A stretch of DNA of 64,000 bases, taken from the NCBI RefSeq assembly GCF_014595885.1, contig NZ_JABUKC010000001.1, positions 496,001 through 560,000 of the forward strand, in the 5' to 3' direction. Position 1 is the first letter of the stretch. The number at the start of each line of letters is the position of its first letter. This DNA comes from Microcella alkalica. GTDB lineage: Bacteria > Actinomycetota > Actinomycetes > Actinomycetales > Microbacteriaceae. Of this stretch, positions 49,852 to 56,676 are shown in pieces. A program made the translations under genes and the position numbers. The notes below the pieces were generated by a model, which saw only the letters and a program-made list of their open reading frames with translations, did not search any database and was not told where the DNA came from.

Positions 49852-50151
49852 TCAGCTGTCGGCGGGCCGGTCGCGGCGAGACTGCGCGACGGCCGCGAGC
49901 AGCTCGCCGAGCGTGTGGTCGCCCTCGACCCGGTGGCGCAGGCTCGCGTCGCCGTTGACGGTGTAGCGGTTGCGGCGGCCGTCGCGCTCCTTGACGAGGT
50001 AGCCGCCCTCGACGAGCTCGGCGATGATGCGCTGCGTGGCGCGCTCGGTGATGCCGACGAGCTCGGCGATCTCGCGCATGCGCAGCTCGGGGTCGGCGGC
50101 GAGGCACACGAGCACGTGGGAGTGATTGGTCAGGAACGTCCACTCGGCCAC
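49852..50151 (-). CDS. Small winged-helix regulator, divergent from the dab operon
   Basis: A 99-residue DNA-binding protein. The core [47 protein letters not shown] is a winged helix of the ArsR/MarR type, with recognition helix [12 protein letters not shown] and a basic wing. There are no cysteine metal-binding motifs. TACAGT (minus strand 50163-50158) ends 6 nt before the GTG, consistent with a leaderless mRNA. It is divergent from dabB with a 163-nt spacer that holds an AT-rich inverted repeat, so it is the obvious candidate regulator of inorganic carbon uptake here. The inducer is unknown. Confidence 0.82.
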
Positions 50152-50266
50152 CAGCCCACTGTAGGGCGCGAGTCCGGCGATCGTCCGGAAGCGCGCGTGG
50201 CGGAGCTCGAACGCGCACGGGGCGCGGAGCGAGCCCTAACCCGACATCCGAAACGCGACACGAAAC

Positions 50267-50286
50267 ACACGAACTACATTACGTGT
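50267..50286. promoter_or_regulatory. Candidate operator of the dab operon
   Basis: ACACG-N10-CGTGT in an AT-rich patch, flanked by a wider CACAC/GTGTG pair (50266-50270 and 50290-50294). A possible dabB -10 box, TATTGT, lies at 50286-50291, just upstream of AAGGAGG (50301-50307), so a protein bound here would cover the promoter. Confidence 0.5.
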
Positions 50287-50314
50287 ATTGTGTGACGCGT
50301 AAGGAGGTTCGCCC

Positions 50315-51637
50315 ATGCCACCCGCACCGCCGATCAGCCTCGAACCGCTCTCCGTGCTCCTGCTCGTGCTCGTCGCCGGCATCGCCCTCGCGGTGCTGCC
50401 CTACGCGCACCGCTCGCTGCGCGGCGACCGCCGCGGACGCTCGACCACCGTCGCGATCGCGGCGATGCTCGTCTCTACCGCCGTGCTCGCCGTCGCCGAT
50501 GCTCCGTGGCTGATCGCCGCCGCCTGGAGCGCCGCGACCCTCGCCACGCTCGCCGCCCTCGGCCTCGGCGGCGGAGCGGCCGCCGTGCGCCGCGCCGCCC
50601 CCTGGCTCGTCATCGGCGACCTCGCGCTCTGGGGGGCCGTCGCCGCGATCGCGGCGGGAGGGCGCGGCGACCTCGCGGCCGTCCTGCTCGTCGTCGCGGC
50701 GGGCATCCGCTGCGCCGCCCCGCCCGCCCACGGCTGGCTCGTCGACTCGCTGCACGCCCCCACGCCCGTCAGCGCCGCCCTGCACGGCGGCATCGTCAAC
50801 GGCGGCGGCATCCTGCTGCTGAGCCAGCTGCCGGTGCTGCAGGCGAGCCCGCTCGCGCTCGGCCTGCTCGCCGCGCTCGCCGCCGTCGCCGTCGTCGCCG
50901 GCACGATCGGCGCCCTCGTGCGCACCGACGTCAAGGGCCGCCTCGTGCTCTCGACCGTCGCGCAGATGGGGTTCATGCTGCTCTGCCTCGCGCTCGGCCT
51001 CGCCGCCGCGGCCGCCCTCCACCTCGTCGCGCACGGCTTCTACAAGAGCGCGCTCTTCCTCGGCTCGAGCGACGGCATCGACCGCCGCGCCGCCGACCGC
51101 CGCGCGCCCGCCGCGCTGCGCCTCACGGCCGCCGGCCGTCGGGTGCGGATGCTCGTCGGCGCGCTGCCCGCCGTGCTCGCCCTCGTCGTCACCGCGCTCG
51201 CCCTCTACCCGGGCGGCCGCGGGCTGCCCGAGGCGCTGCTGCTGCTCGTCATGGCCGCCGCCGTCGCGACCGCCGGATACCGCGCCGCCCTCGCCGCGCG
51301 CACCCTGCCGCACGCGCTCGGCGTCGGAGCCCTCGCCGCCGCCGGCGCCACCGCGTTCGCCGCGCTGACCTCGGCGCTCTCCGGGGCGCTCGCGCTGCCC
51401 TCCGGGGGTGCCGCGGCCGGTGGCGCCGCCGTGCCGCTCGTGCTCGCCGTGCTCACGATCGCGGCCCTCGCCGGGCTCGCCGCCGTGCGGGGCACGGCGC
51501 CCTCGGGGCGGCTCGGGCTGCGCATCCTCGCCCTCGGCCACCGTCTCGGCGGGCCCGGTCTCGTCGGCCGCCCCCGCTCGCGCCCCGCCGCCTCCCGCAC
51601 CGCCGGTTCGCGCTTCCCGATCGGAGCCTCCGCATGA
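50315..51637 (+). CDS. dabB: DabB-like proton-conducting subunit of an inorganic carbon transporter (NuoL/MrpA-related)
   Basis: A 440-residue membrane protein related to the antiporter-like subunits of complex I. About twelve helices are visible. The functional block APPAHGWLVDSLHAPTPVSAALHGGIVNGGGILLL matches the NuoL helix 7-8 region, and TDVKGRLVLSTVAQMGFM plus LVAHGFYKSALFLGSSDGID match helices 10-12, with the buried His and Lys of HGFYKS. It is shorter than NuoL and is encoded directly before dabA, which defines the DAB system: DabB passes protons (or sodium) and DabA hydrates CO2. The ATG has AAGGAGG 8 nt upstream. The stop overlaps dabA by 4 nt. Confidence 0.87.
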   Translation: MPPAPPISLEPLSVLLLVLVAGIALAVLPYAHRSLRGDRRGRSTTVAIAAMLVSTAVLAVADAPWLIAAAWSAATLATLAALGLGGGAAAVRRAAPWLVIGDLALWGAVAAIAAGGRGDLAAVLLVVAAGIRCAAPPAHGWLVDSLHAPTPVSAALHGGIVNGGGILLLSQLPVLQASPLALGLLAALAAVAVVAGTIGALVRTDVKGRLVLSTVAQMGFMLLCLALGLAAAAALHLVAHGFYKSALFLGSSDGIDRRAADRRAPAALRLTAAGRRVRMLVGALPAVLALVVTALALYPGGRGLPEALLLLVMAAAVATAGYRAALAARTLPHALGVGALAAAGATAFAALTSALSGALALPSGGAAAGGAAVPLVLAVLTIAALAGLAAVRGTAPSGRLGLRILALGHRLGGPGLVGRPRSRPAASRTAGSRFPIGASA

Positions 51638-54108
51638 CCAGCCTGCTGCCGACCACCGCGCGCATCCTGCGCGCCCGCGCCGACGCCGAGATCGCCGCGA
51701 GCGTCATCGCGCCGTACTACGGCCTTGACGCCGCGATCGCCGTCAACCCCGTGCTGCCCTCGCTGCGGCAGGGGATGCCCGCGGCGCTCCGCGACGCCGC
51801 CCCCGCCCTCGGGGCGCGCGGCGGCGTGAGCGAGCAGTGGGCCCGCGAGCGCTTCGACGCCGGGCGCATCTCGCGCACCGAGCTCGCGCGCGCCCTGCGG
51901 GAGCGCCTCGACGCCGACCACCCGGCGGTCGGCGAGAGCGACGCGACCCTCGTGGCGCGGTTCCTCGCCGGCGCGGGGGCGGTCGCCGAGCCGCCGGTCG
52001 CCGACGCGGTCGCCGACGCCGCGGAGCAGGCCGCGCTCGGTGTCGACGAGCGCGTGACGTCCTGGTGCCGCGCCGCGCTCGCCCCCGAGGCCGCCGCCTG
52101 GCCGGTGCCGGTCGCCGAGCTCGGCTTCTACGGCGCCTGGCGCGCCGTCGCTGCCACCGACCTCACGCTGCCCCGCGAGGCTCGGCGGCGCATCGAGCAG
52201 GCGCCGCTCGCGGCCGATGCCGCGCTCGCTGCGGCACTCGAGGCGAGCGGCCTGCCGCAGGCCGACCGCGCCGAGGCCCTGCGGCGCGAGCTCGCCCGCA
52301 CGCCCGGCTTCACCGCCCACGTGCGCTGGCTCGCCGAGACGCGCGGCGACGTCGAGATCGTCGACCTGCTCGCCGTGCGGCTGACGCTGCGCCTCGCGCT
52401 CGACGCACCGCTGCCGTCGCCCGCCGCGACGCTCGCACGGCCCCGTCGGCCCCGACGCGACGAGCTCGGGCTCGACGCCGTCGACCGCGCCCTCGTCTGG
52501 CAGAGCGCGCTCGAGGCCCGCGTGCACGGCCGCCTGCTGTCGCGCGTGCGCCCCGAGCCGCCGACCCCCGCCGCGTCGCCGGCTGCACACCTGGTCTTCT
52601 GCATCGACGTGCGCAGCGAGGGCATCCGCCGCCACCTCGAGCAGCAGGGCCCCTACGCGACCTCGGGCTTCGCCGGGTTCTTCGGCATCGCCGCGGAGGT
52701 TGAGCCGCTCGCCGCCTCCGCCGCCTCCGCGGCGTGCCCCGTGCTGCTCAGCCCGCGCTACCGCGTGAGCGAGCGGCCCGTGCCGGGTGCCTGGCGCGGC
52801 GCGAAGGGCCTCGTCGACCGCCTCGCCGGAGGCCGGGCGTGGCGCTCGGCGCTGAAGGCGCCGGACGCGGTCGCCGGTGCGCCGCTCGGCTGGGCCGAGA
52901 TGACCGGGTGGCTGTGGGGTCCGGTCGCGGCGACCCGCAGCATCCTCGCCGGCGCCGCAGGCCGCGATCGCCGACCCGACGAGCCCGCGACCGCCCCCGC
53001 GACCCTCTTCGACGTCGACTCGGCGCTCACGATCGACGACCAGCTCGACACCGCCGAGGTGATCCTGCGCACGATGGGCATGACCGCGCCGGATGCCCCG
53101 CTCGTGGTGCTCGTCGGCCACGGCTCGACGACCGTCAACAACGCCTTCCGCACCGCGCTCGACTGCGGCGCCTGCGGCGGCCACCGGGGCGCGCCGAACG
53201 CCCGCATCGCCGCGGCGATCCTCAACAGCGAGGCGGTGCGCGCCGGGCTCGCCGAGCGCGGCATCGTGATCCCCGCCGAGACGGTGTTCCTCGCGGGCGA
53301 GCACGACACCGTGAGCGACGCCCTGCGCATCGTCGACGCCTCGGCGCTGCCCGCCTCGCGCCGGGGCGAACTCGACACCCTGCTCGCCGACGCCGCGCGC
53401 GCCGCCGACGCCCTGCAGCGCGAGCGCGCTGCCGAGCTGCCGGGCGCCGCTCGGCGCGGCGGTCGCGGGCGGGCGCGCCTGGAGCGCCGCGGCCGCGACT
53501 GGGCGCAGGTCTACCCGGAGTGGGGCCTCGCCCGCAACGCGGCGATCGTCATCGGGCCCCGCTCGCGCACCGCCGGGGTCGATCTCGAGCGCCGAGCCTT
53601 CCTGCACTCGTACGACCCGGTGGCGGATGCCGACGGTCGCGCCCTCGAGACCATCCTCACCGCGCCGCTCGTGGTCGCGCACTGGATCAACGCCCAGTAC
53701 TACTTCTCGGCCGTCGACCCCGACGTGCTCGGCGCCGGCTCGAAGACCGTGCACAACCTCGTCGGCGGCGCGGGCGTGCTCGCCGGACCGGGCGGCGACC
53801 TGCGCATCGGCCTGCCCTGGCAGTCGATCGGCACCCGCGCCGGGCTGCACCACGAGCCGCTGCGCCTGCTGGCCGTCGTCGACGCGCCCCTGCCGCGCAT
53901 TGACGACATCATCCAGCGCGCCGACATCGTCGCCGACCTGGTGTTCGGCGACTGGGTGCTGCTCGTCGCCCCCGGCGCCGAGCCCGGCACCTGGGTGCGC
54001 CGCACCCGCGAGGGCTGGCAGCCGTACGCGCTCGATGCGAGCATGCACACCGAGGAGGGCGCGCCCGGCGCTGCTCCGCAGACCACCGACCGGAAGGAGG
54101 CGGCATGA
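51634..54108 (+). CDS. dabA: DabA-like inorganic carbon transporter subunit (DUF2309/UPF0753)
   Basis: An 824-residue protein distantly related to beta-carbonic anhydrase. The predicted zinc-site residues are Cys323 and Asp325 (VFCIDVRSEGIRRHLE), His496 (VLVGHGSTTVNNAFR) and Cys511 (ALDCGACGGHRG). Their spacing, 173 and 15 residues, is the same as I recall for Halothiobacillus DabA2 (C351, D353, H524, C539). Other family blocks are FAGFFGIAAEVEP, RDWAQVYPEWGLARNAAIVIGPR and VVAHWINAQYYFSAVDPDVLGAG, followed by KTVHNLVGG. Predicted to work at the membrane with DabB to turn CO2 into bicarbonate one-way inside the cell. Start and stop both overlap neighbours by 4 nt. Confidence 0.93.
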   Translation: MTSLLPTTARILRARADAEIAASVIAPYYGLDAAIAVNPVLPSLRQGMPAALRDAAPALGARGGVSEQWARERFDAGRISRTELARALRERLDADHPAVGESDATLVARFLAGAGAVAEPPVADAVADAAEQAALGVDERVTSWCRAALAPEAAAWPVPVAELGFYGAWRAVAATDLTLPREARRRIEQAPLAADAALAAALEASGLPQADRAEALRRELARTPGFTAHVRWLAETRGDVEIVDLLAVRLTLRLALDAPLPSPAATLARPRRPRRDELGLDAVDRALVWQSALEARVHGRLLSRVRPEPPTPAASPAAHLVFCIDVRSEGIRRHLEQQGPYATSGFAGFFGIAAEVEPLAASAASAACPVLLSPRYRVSERPVPGAWRGAKGLVDRLAGGRAWRSALKAPDAVAGAPLGWAEMTGWLWGPVAATRSILAGAAGRDRRPDEPATAPATLFDVDSALTIDDQLDTAEVILRTMGMTAPDAPLVVLVGHGSTTVNNAFRTALDCGACGGHRGAPNARIAAAILNSEAVRAGLAERGIVIPAETVFLAGEHDTVSDALRIVDASALPASRRGELDTLLADAARAADALQRERAAELPGAARRGGRGRARLERRGRDWAQVYPEWGLARNAAIVIGPRSRTAGVDLERRAFLHSYDPVADADGRALETILTAPLVVAHWINAQYYFSAVDPDVLGAGSKTVHNLVGGAGVLAGPGGDLRIGLPWQSIGTRAGLHHEPLRLLAVVDAPLPRIDDIIQRADIVADLVFGDWVLLVAPGAEPGTWVRRTREGWQPYALDASMHTEEGAPGAAPQTTDRKEAA

Positions 54109-54428
54109 GCCGCGACTCACTCACCCGCATGACCAAGATCGAGGTCGTCGCGCGCACCGCCGACTCCGACGCGGTGCGCCGCCAGATCGTCGCCTCCGGA
54201 GCGACCGGCTACACGAGCCTGCCCGCCGTGACCGGCCTCGGCCACCACGGCGCCCACGAGGGGCGCGCGCTGTTCAACGACCGCGACGCGCTCACCCTCA
54301 CGATCACCGTCGTGCCCGACGACCGCGCCGACGACCTCATCGACGGCCTGCGCTCGCTGCTCGAGCGCTCAACGGGCGTCATGTTCGTGAGCGACACCTA
54401 CGTGAGCCGGCCGCACTACTTCAGCTGA
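54105..54428 (+). CDS. PII-like regulatory protein of the dab operon
   Basis: A 107-residue protein with the ferredoxin-like PII fold: the first strand MTKIEVVARTADSDAVRRQIVASGATGYTSLPAVTGLG leads into a shortened T-loop (GHHGAHEGRALFNDRDAL), then LTITVVPDDRADDLIDGLRSLL and a final strand. The uridylylated tyrosine of GlnB is absent, so it is not a classical nitrogen sensor. PII-like proteins beside bicarbonate transporters (SbtB, CPII) sense adenine nucleotides or bicarbonate; that role is inferred here. The ATG overlaps the dabA stop with GGAAGGAGG upstream. An ATG eight codons later is a possible second start. Confidence 0.82.
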   Translation: MSRDSLTRMTKIEVVARTADSDAVRRQIVASGATGYTSLPAVTGLGHHGAHEGRALFNDRDALTLTITVVPDDRADDLIDGLRSLLERSTGVMFVSDTYVSRPHYFS

Positions 54429-54460
54429 GCGCGGCGCGAGCCGAGCATCCGCGAACCGGA

Positions 54461-54497
54461 ACGGCGCCCGCCCCGAGAGCCGGGGCGGGCGCCGTTC
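54461..54497. terminator. Strong hairpin terminator between the dab operon and fumC
   Basis: A perfect 15-bp stem from 54461 (AACGGCGCCCGCCCC) to 54497, extendable by one G-C pair, around a loop of 5-7 nt. It serves convergent transcripts from both sides. Confidence 0.85.
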
Positions 54498-55964: not shown

Positions 55965-56606
55965 TCAGATCTGGCCGACGACGATGTCGGGCACTGCTCG
56001 ACCCTCGAGCAGGCGGTAATTGGCACCGACGATAGCCAGGGTACCGGCGGCGACGGCGTCGCTGATCAGCTCGCTCGCGGCCAGCAGCTCGCCGACGGTG
56101 TCGCGCAGGTGCTCGCGCCCGACGACCTGCGCGTCGAGTTCGGCGGGGTCGGTCGTGCCGGCGGCGAGCAGGCAGCGGTCGACCGCGGGCACGATGCGCT
56201 CGACGAGACCCTGGATGTGCGGGGGCAGCGGCGGAGCATCCGCCCCTCGGGAGTCGATCGCCGCCCGCACCGCACCGCACTCGTCGTGGCCGAGCACGAG
56301 GATCAGCGGCACGCCCAGCACGCCGACCGCGTACTCGAGCGAGCCGACGACGCTGCTGGAGATCACCTGCCCGGCGTTGCGCACGACGAAGAGGTCGCCG
56401 AGGCCCTTGTCGAAGATGATCTCGGCCGCCAGGCGCGAGTCGCTGCAGCCGAAGAGGGCCGCGTGCGGCGCCTGCGAGGAGGCCAGCTCGTTGCGCCGCT
56501 CGACGTCCTGTCGCGGATGCGCGGGCTCACCGGCGACGAAGCGGGCGTTGCCGCGCTCCATCTCGCGCCACACGTCGGCGGGGGTGCGCTGCTCGATCGG
56601 CGGCAT
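55965..56606 (-). CDS. Beta-carbonic anhydrase
   Basis: Interconverts CO2 and bicarbonate. The 213-residue protein has zinc ligands Cys54, His107 and Cys110 (FGCSDSRLAAE, VLGHDECGAV) and the Asp56-Arg58 catalytic dyad. The N-terminal block MERGNARFVAGEPAHPRQD and VVRNAGQVISSSVVGSLEYAV match the plant-type/clade B enzymes. GGAG precedes the ATG at 56606. It is probably cytosolic and lies about 1.5 kb from the dab operon, in the opposite orientation. A soluble anhydrase beside a DAB system must be restrained or serve another step, because it could let CO2 leak back out. Confidence 0.93.
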   Translation of the reverse strand: MPPIEQRTPADVWREMERGNARFVAGEPAHPRQDVERRNELASSQAPHAALFGCSDSRLAAEIIFDKGLGDLFVVRNAGQVISSSVVGSLEYAVGVLGVPLILVLGHDECGAVRAAIDSRGADAPPLPPHIQGLVERIVPAVDRCLLAAGTTDPAELDAQVVGREHLRDTVGELLAASELISDAVAAGTLAIVGANYRLLEGRAVPDIVVGQI

Positions 56607-56676
56607 GGCGGCTCCGGGAGGCGTCAGAGGTGGAGGGCGGGGCTCCACGGCCCCCGACCTGCGAGCCTACGCCCGC

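Follow-up and report, generated by a model that had tools for sequence, protein, structure and literature searches.

The window examined here, a 64,000-nucleotide stretch of the Microcella alkalica genome (GCF_014595885.1, contig NZ_JABUKC010000001.1, positions 496,001 to 560,000), carries a cassette of about 4.6 kb whose four genes encode a winged-helix regulator, the subunits DabB and DabA of a DAB-type inorganic carbon system, and a PII-like protein. The locus contains the following features.

49852..50151, minus strand: winged-helix regulator, 99 aa, GTG start, divergent from dabB (Pfam MarR_2, 33 bits)
50253..50300, no strand: long imperfect dyad spanning the operator (DNA fold z -2.59; 0 of 200 shuffles equally stable)
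50264..50303, no strand: predicted 40-bp operator upstream of dabB (Mycobacteriales matrix)
50278-50289, minus strand: operator core AATACACGTAAT (sequence match)
50300-50302, plus strand: in-frame stop TAA ahead of dabB (sequence)
50301..50307, plus strand: ribosome-binding-site-like AAGGAGG of dabB (sequence); the operator end overlaps this site
50315..51637, plus strand: dabB, 440 aa, NuoL-like membrane subunit (Pfam Proton_antipo_M, 84 bits)
51634..54108, plus strand: dabA, 824 aa, beta-carbonic-anhydrase-like subunit with C323, D325, R327, E422, H496 and C511 (Pfam DabA, 705 bits)
54105..54428, plus strand: PII-like protein, 107 aa (Pfam P-II, 69 bits)
54460..54496, no strand: perfect 15-bp inverted repeat in the convergent gap between the PII-like gene and fumC (sequence, by eye)

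An initial annotation of this DNA had described successive 4-nt overlaps at dabB/dabA and dabA/PII-like, with a winged-helix regulator divergent from dabB. The overlaps are correct in our reading and placement of the frames, and the regulator is supported by its MarR_2 match and its predicted fold. The inverted repeat beyond the PII-like gene is possibly a two-way terminator lacking a T run; a scan for consensus terminators found none.

DabA covers positions 3-747 of the 747 in the Pfam DabA profile (705 bits against a cut-off of 25), and its best solved relative is DabA2 (PDB 9rd0_A, 348 bits). The Cys-His-Cys spacing given initially for Halothiobacillus DabA2 holds, with 173 residues from C323 to H496 and 15 from H496 to C511, and is the spacing of the DabA2 zinc residues C351, H524 and C539 (PMC13144422). 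The zinc site (C323, H496, C511) and the Asp-Arg dyad (D325, R327) are present and fall in invariant columns of our alignment A4, and when DabA and DabB were aligned to the DAB2 pair, the check initially proposed, the zinc-site residues superposed with those of DabA2. All 11 catalytic and coupling residues named for DabA2, in a list running from C351 to L658 (PMC13144422), are identical in the window protein: C351, D353, R355, S356, A376 and E444 correspond to C323, D325, R327, S328, A347 and E422, and H524, C539, H585, D590 and L658 to H496, C511, H557, D562 and L632. These positions were counted by hand on the printed alignment, and all letters fit the numbering of the paper. E422 is probably the DabA2-type coupling glutamate of the finger, less certainly placed than the zinc site: E422 and G425 are invariant in 15 rows and match E444-x-x-G, and the pairing rests on this shared ExxG motif because the pairwise alignment places E422 six residues off E444. 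In a quick tree the Microcella DabA proteins (seven rows, support 100*) stand apart from those of other Microbacteriaceae; the tree has some long branches, and not every fork that matters here is firm.

DabB likewise has its best solved relative in DabB2 (9rd0). All seven proton-path residues of DabB2 are kept in the pairwise alignment, where S256, H260, K310, S316, H339, H343 and K347 correspond to S153, H157, K207, S213, H236, H240 and K244, and all seven are invariant across the 11 rows of alignment A3.

That the four genes make up a cassette conserved in actinobacteria is a new point. The unit is found again in relatives of Microcella and, at different chromosomal positions, in other genera, and its arrangement is therefore not due to chance. 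That regulator, dabB, dabA and PII gene belong together as one unit had been proposed initially, and is borne out by locus counts and by genome-wide co-occurrence. A PII gene is present in 65 of the 66 DabA loci with 500 nt of downstream sequence and the regulator in 56 of the 63 with 3.3 kb upstream, usually divergent upstream of dabB (downstream in L081). The counts cover L014-L093 and the window where the DabA match is at least 2,000 nt, the regulator being scored anywhere in the fetched locus. Set aside were L001-L013 (repeat genomes), the phylum sample considered below, and loci with a shorter DabA match, namely L017, L071 and L074 (PII present) and L069, L072, L076, L077, L078, L079 and L085 (no PII seen; most of these non-actinobacterial or cut off). 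The exceptions are L067 from Geobacillus, with neither gene, and L025, L033, L037, L044, L045 and L070, with no regulator.

Because the DabA of the window itself served as query for the 72 named loci, its near relatives are over-represented, and a genome-wide test is fairer. DabA occurs in 11 of 199 Microbacteriaceae genomes and 23 of 396 genomes of the phylum, the window's own genome being included in both. Profile searches that scored at most 24-25 first-look candidates per genome, and may thus miss weak copies, found the PII subfamily in 10 of the 11 DabA-positive Microbacteriaceae genomes against 0 of 188 DabA-negative ones (Fisher 5e-16) and, with a threshold of 150 bits, the regulator in 11/11 against 2/188 (Fisher 2e-16). 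The sole DabA-positive genome with no PII match (G198) has a contig that ends within dabA, and in all 11 the regulator lies on the dab contig, adjoining dab.

The dab-less congener G137 was considered as a clean empty site and rejected: its phoH-fumC gap of about 1.7 kb holds a PadR-like gene, so gain and loss of the cassette cannot be separated. A complete cassette was also seen at L028, on a contig labelled Spirochaetaceae whose stretch carries uppS- and phoH-like genes, perhaps through a binning error or transfer. In other actinobacterial families (L095-L100, L102, L104 and L108-L110), DabA matches extend up to 3.8 kb, with frames of about 1,300 aa, a large insertion near the N-terminus, and flanking DabB-like genes on one side or both.

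The nearest solved relative of the PII-like protein is 5d4n (E 1.1e-15), named nitrogen regulatory protein P-II in the search entry, which we take to be CPII of Thiomonas. The E. coli-type PII 1pil gives only E 0.34, and the window protein is thus a P-II family member nearer to 5d4n than to the GlnB/GlnK type. The founding DAB paper, that of Desmarais in 2019, reportedly may mention PII genes near DABs.

The regulator is a single 99-aa domain (MarR_2 cut-off 27 bits) whose AlphaFold model has a mean pLDDT of 85.6 and an ArsR/MarR-like winged-helix fold. Away from dab, its family occurs at 18 places in the 199 genomes at 92-155 bits; other winged-helix proteins match only weakly, at 20-32 bits. 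All 18 places were fetched, and at 13 of them a homologue of SbtA adjoins the regulator relative or sits one gene off. All six SbtA homologues scanned belong to PF05982 (315-392 bits), and a PII-like gene directly follows sbtA in four of the 13, both of those scanned being confirmed as P-II. Given these 13 neighbourhoods, the family is probably one of inorganic-carbon regulators. The other five places are L175 in the window's own genome (ABC1 kinase and AsnC neighbours), L178 (BTAD), L180 (DUF4389), L183 (DUF4386) and L188, where a partial sbtA lies at the stretch edge and an isocitrate-dehydrogenase-like gene is next door (by eye).

In a tree of 47 regulators, dab-linked and sbtA-linked members are mixed, with six label changes for dab against 14.7 with shuffled labels; well-supported branches force at least two of the six, and the bootstrap had not settled. 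SbtA-linked L177 falls among the dab regulators in an unsettled part of the tree, while the dab regulators L021, L027 and L047 (Mycolicibacterium/Mycobacterium) group with the sbtA set at moderate support. This is most simply read as a single family of regulators serving inorganic-carbon uptake, with more than one swap of partner. The genome of the window holds a second, intact paralogue of the SbtA-linked type (L175 4660-4926, C1:404650-404928), which groups with the SbtA-linked regulator of congener G137 (98/92). No sbtA was found near it in the fetched 9 kb, and it is possibly a relic of a lost or moved sbtA. None of the 199 genomes showed both dabA (11 carriers) and a regulator-sbtA pair (13 carriers); about 0.7 would be expected by chance, and sbtA itself was not searched genome-wide, so mutual exclusion of DAB and SbtA is not claimed. 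Two regulator copies stand upstream of dabB in L024, L030, L075 and L083 (Nocardia, Promicromonospora), one of those in L024 within a frame of about 306 aa.

A TerC gene accompanies the regulator at 9 of the 18 non-dab places (Pfam-confirmed in L176 and L187) and in the dab loci of 14 relatives, where it lies between regulator and dabB in the four inspected (L021, L027, L032 and L084). Coordinates of such genes are L021 5264-6346, L027 5399-6406, L176 4597-5652 and L187 3270-4304. The TerC family is tied to metal export elsewhere, and its recurrence at dab and sbtA loci suggests a stress shared by both, for instance alkaline pH or metal.

Comparison of the regulator-dabB regions gave a core, AATACAnGTATT, found with at most two mismatches in 39 of 61 regions against about 0.9 expected from first-order shuffles; this count is not independent, the core having first been spotted in some of the same regions. 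An independent test used a 40-bp matrix from 20 non-redundant Mycobacteriales dab sites, with no Microbacteriaceae in its training. Over both strands of the window (127,922 positions, mean -59.8, s.d. 11.6) its best match is 50264-50303, at 30.5 bits on the plus strand and 31.6 bits on the minus strand. The four best matches on each strand all overlap the operator, the fourth scoring -4.2 and -4.5, and nothing elsewhere exceeds -4.2. The Mycobacteriales core AATACACGTAAT has one exact match in the 64 kb, and still only one at up to two mismatches, where 0.06 would be expected. Among the 41 regions outside the training set, some of them close kin of training rows, 36 reach 12 bits, as do 12 of 16 in Microbacteriaceae. 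DAB loci of other architecture (L067, L072, L077, L078, L079, L139, L142 and L143) score at most 10.2 bits across the whole locus. L141 (31.6) and L044 (23.7) have an operator site and no regulator within the fetched stretch; L144 has a regulator and a matrix score of only 2.8.

In many mycobacterial sites the right end includes an ATG, possibly the start codon of dabB. In the window the operator runs into the ribosome-binding site of dabB, where a bound protein would block initiation, so repression by the regulator is, from position, the likelier sign of control. When the 13 sbtA loci, several of them near relatives, were scored with local base composition, six had their best match no more than 250 bp upstream of sbtA; the score is positive in only two of the six, G137 (13.8) and G141 (10.6), which is at most suggestive of an operator there. 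The dab-less G137 locus gives an operator-like 10.4 bits at the start of its PadR-like gene, and scores near 10 can therefore arise without dab. No operator-like match was found in the fetched stretches around the genome's own pyruvate carboxylase, two carboxyltransferases, carbonic anhydrase and second regulator copy (best at or below -10.6). At L188 6109-6148, a 33.7-bit operator-like site lies upstream of the isocitrate-dehydrogenase-like gene, near the regulator copy; this genome is AT-richer, and base composition inflates the score.

The whole-genome search for RuBisCO (PF00016) that had been proposed as a check found none in the genome (2,493,753 bp, 99.99% complete), which extends the earlier remark on its absence beyond the window. 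None of the 11 DabA-positive Microbacteriaceae carries it; among the 32 other DabA-positive genomes, a match to the family model, which also takes in RuBisCO-like proteins, occurs in none of the 10 from Microbacteriaceae and in 9 of the 22 from other parts of the phylum. PEP carboxylase, offered initially as one bicarbonate sink, is absent from the genome; one pyruvate carboxylase and two carboxyltransferases are present.

The genome's only beta-class carbonic anhydrase, with a full motif, lies 1.5 kb from the cassette (55965-56648, minus strand) in the block fumC-CA-DUF4245-xseB-xseA. It was tried as a fifth cassette gene in Microcella and rejected: the dab-less congener G137 (L137) keeps the same block, so the enzyme is no part of the Microcella cassette, and beta-class enzymes occur in 194 of the 199 family genomes, including all 11 DabA carriers. 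In cassettes of the Mycolicibacterium type, a beta-carbonic anhydrase homologue follows the PII gene as fifth gene at 39 loci (including L021, L025, L068 and L138). The dyad Arg of CxDSR is lost in 35 of the 38 readable copies, and nine Microcella-clade enzymes near fumC keep CSDSR; the fifth-gene homologue may be a crippled or sensor carbonic anhydrase. The accessible part of PMC8552792 states that MpsAB and carbonic anhydrase rarely share a species, that several Bacillaceae have both, and that a putative carbonic anhydrase directly follows the MpsAB homologue in some Bacillaceae/Firmicutes. Excerpts of PMC9894237 describe co-expression of DAB and carbonic anhydrase as harmless in E. coli or C. 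necator and state that heterotrophs need bicarbonate. Going by these portions of the two papers, coexistence is uncommon and tolerable.

We consider it likely, from sequence comparison, that the cassette encodes a membrane-energised vectorial CO2-hydrating pump that keeps up the bicarbonate of a heterotroph under the control of its PII-like protein and regulator. DabB would pass protons driven by the membrane potential, and DabA would hydrate CO2, whether external or respiratory, to bicarbonate at the buried zinc site in one direction, as proposed for DAB2 (PMC13144422). The bicarbonate pool would then supply carboxylations of pyruvate, acyl-CoA and other substrates. By analogy with CPII and SbtB, the PII-like protein would sense adenylates and bicarbonate and throttle the complex, and the winged-helix protein would bind the 40-bp element and repress dab when inorganic carbon is plentiful. 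A need to capture CO2, respiratory CO2 included, would arise in CO2-poor and often alkaline places, judging by the habitat given in the accessible text of PMC4585250. We infer in this way the pump activity, the ion, the ligand or signal, the PII target and the sign of control. A light-made proton gradient could also drive DAB, the available text of PMC6106888 reporting rhodopsins at genus level, in representatives of Microcella and Yonghaparkia.

Several observations weigh against such a controlled pump, or narrow it. In the phylum sample a PII gene lies beside dabA in 5 of 22 genomes (1.4-kb flanks). Seven loci of the sample, refetched with long flanks, show a regulator in L138, L140 and L144 and none in L139, L141, L142 and L143, and in many of the remaining genomes an enlarged dabA is flanked on one side or both by DabB-like genes. 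The cassette thus marks one branch of actinobacterial DABs and not all of them. The operator match is poor at the Microbacteriaceae dab loci L088, L090, L091 and L092 and at L140, and the beta-class enzyme of the same genome gives bicarbonate another route. DabB is 440 aa long against 551 in DabB2, the region of about DabB2 residues 1-78 (TM1-2) being absent; Arg132 (with Asp102) replaces Lys235 of the Lys235-Asp185 pair, and Val99 stands at the position of Arg182. These changes would suit a decaying cassette with a dead pump, a reading to which we give very little credence: the short DabB is common to seven Microcella-clade loci (window, L014, L015, L016, L018, L019 and L063), its pathway residues are invariant, the frames are open and the overlaps intact. 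At the Lys235 position, actinobacterial DabBs in which the motif was displayed have Arg, and Geobacillus has Pro. The DAB2 mutants K235A and R182A still complement with a growth yield 30-60% lower (PMC13144422). The predicted model has 13 transmembrane segments as counted and does not match the 15 helices of DAB2; the 15-helix DabB and the Lys235-Asp185 pair are DAB2-like details rather than family-defining. As aligned, the lack of TM1-2 in Microcella DabB is counted among the new points.

The regulator itself raises further doubts about inorganic carbon as the signal. Its fold neighbours are a mixture of ArsR/SmtB metal sensors and MarR proteins, including CzrA, SmtB, AntR and AdcR, and in an alignment of 14 relatives (A1) four histidines (His10, His12, His73 and His79) never vary and Cys16 hardly does; these residues could form a metal site. 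With the TerC neighbours, this would fit a metal or general stress regulator for which the zinc enzyme DabA is one target. We regard that as unlikely, since the metalloregulator model HTH_metalloreg gives 22 bits against a cut-off of 55 and sbtA stands beside 13 of the 18 non-dab relatives. The protein could also act as an activator, or as a metal or pH sensor. The same TerC genes would suit a rather less probable role of DabBA in ion or pH homeostasis, through sodium or proton entry or the membrane potential, with bicarbonate as a by-product of an alkaline-stress cassette, as was formerly suggested for MpsAB. The available part of PMC4585250 counts Microcella among the alkaliphilic actinobacteria, and a sodium-transporter mutant was rescued by MpsAB and not by DAB2 (PMC13144422); a complete zinc site with its probable coupling Glu422, a PII partner nearest CPII and a regulator family shared with a bicarbonate transporter all speak against it. 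Membership of the PII superfamily might tie the pump to nitrogen status instead of inorganic carbon, which seems highly improbable given that 5d4n is the nearest relative and canonical PII chains reach only E 0.3-1.3.

The vectorial CO2-hydrating pump with its own control thus remains our preferred reading, and the locus is a real, probably working DAB in a heterotroph with two-level control. A broader proposal, whose chances we put a shade below even, is a portable actinobacterial module of winged-helix repressor, operator and CPII/SbtB-type PII that would have been joined, on repeated occasions, to DAB and to SbtA, bicarbonate systems unrelated to each other, in organisms without CO2 fixation. 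If this is true, the regulator would serve heterotrophic Actinomycetota as a dedicated transcriptional sensor of inorganic carbon or of a close proxy. The sensing of bicarbonate and the control of its supply are little known in heterotrophs. The 99-aa protein, which has a defined candidate site of 40 bp and relatives at both of these uptake systems, offers a sensor candidate that can be tested directly. The cassette, with its short DabB, would also offer engineering a minimal self-contained regulated CO2-trapping unit, and the genome is a natural case of DAB alongside carbonic anhydrase.

Set against what is known, the initial account keeps its DAB, zinc site, PII-like protein, regulator, cassette and lack of RuBisCO, and loses its PEP carboxylase sink; the operator, the nearby beta-class enzyme, the short DabB and the link to SbtA were missing from it. 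Its inorganic carbon uptake survives as DAB identity and not as bicarbonate import, since a DAB2-type pump hydrates CO2 (PMC13144422). The host is indeed without RuBisCO, but the accessible parts of PMC6689103 and PMC8552792 already describe MpsAB in a heterotroph, and a heterotroph's DAB alone is therefore a weak surprise. In the open-licence literature searched, we recognised no description of this cassette or of a winged-helix regulator of dab or sbtA in actinobacteria, and neither of the terms PII and Actinobacteria appears in the available portion of PMC8552792.

The closest parallel is DAB2 of Halothiobacillus neapolitanus (9rd0), which shares the two-subunit vectorial carbonic anhydrase type and the named residues. 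The Microcella system differs in its genome without RuBisCO, its DabB without TM1-2, its Arg for Lys235, and its own PII-like protein and winged-helix regulator. Like MpsAB of Staphylococcus aureus, it is a DAB-type pair in a non-autotroph; MpsAB is needed in air and exchangeable with carbonic anhydrase (excerpts of PMC6689103 and PMC8552792), and S. aureus reportedly has no carbonic anhydrase, whereas the window genome has a beta-class enzyme. The presumed CPII of Thiomonas (5d4n), the closest solved relative of the PII-like protein, is titled carboxysome-associated, while the window gene closes a dabBA operon in a heterotroph. Cyanobacterial SbtA-SbtB likewise pairs a bicarbonate transporter with a PII-like protein, and in Microbacteriaceae sbtA stands beside a relative of the window regulator; SbtA (PF05982) is a family unlike DAB, and no sbtA was seen in the window cassette. 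Among single-domain winged-helix regulators of the MarR/ArsR type, the window protein is alike in fold and size, and its matches to named families are weak. The pump is of a known kind; the new points would be the module that regulates it, the operator of that module and the fact that it is shared with SbtA.

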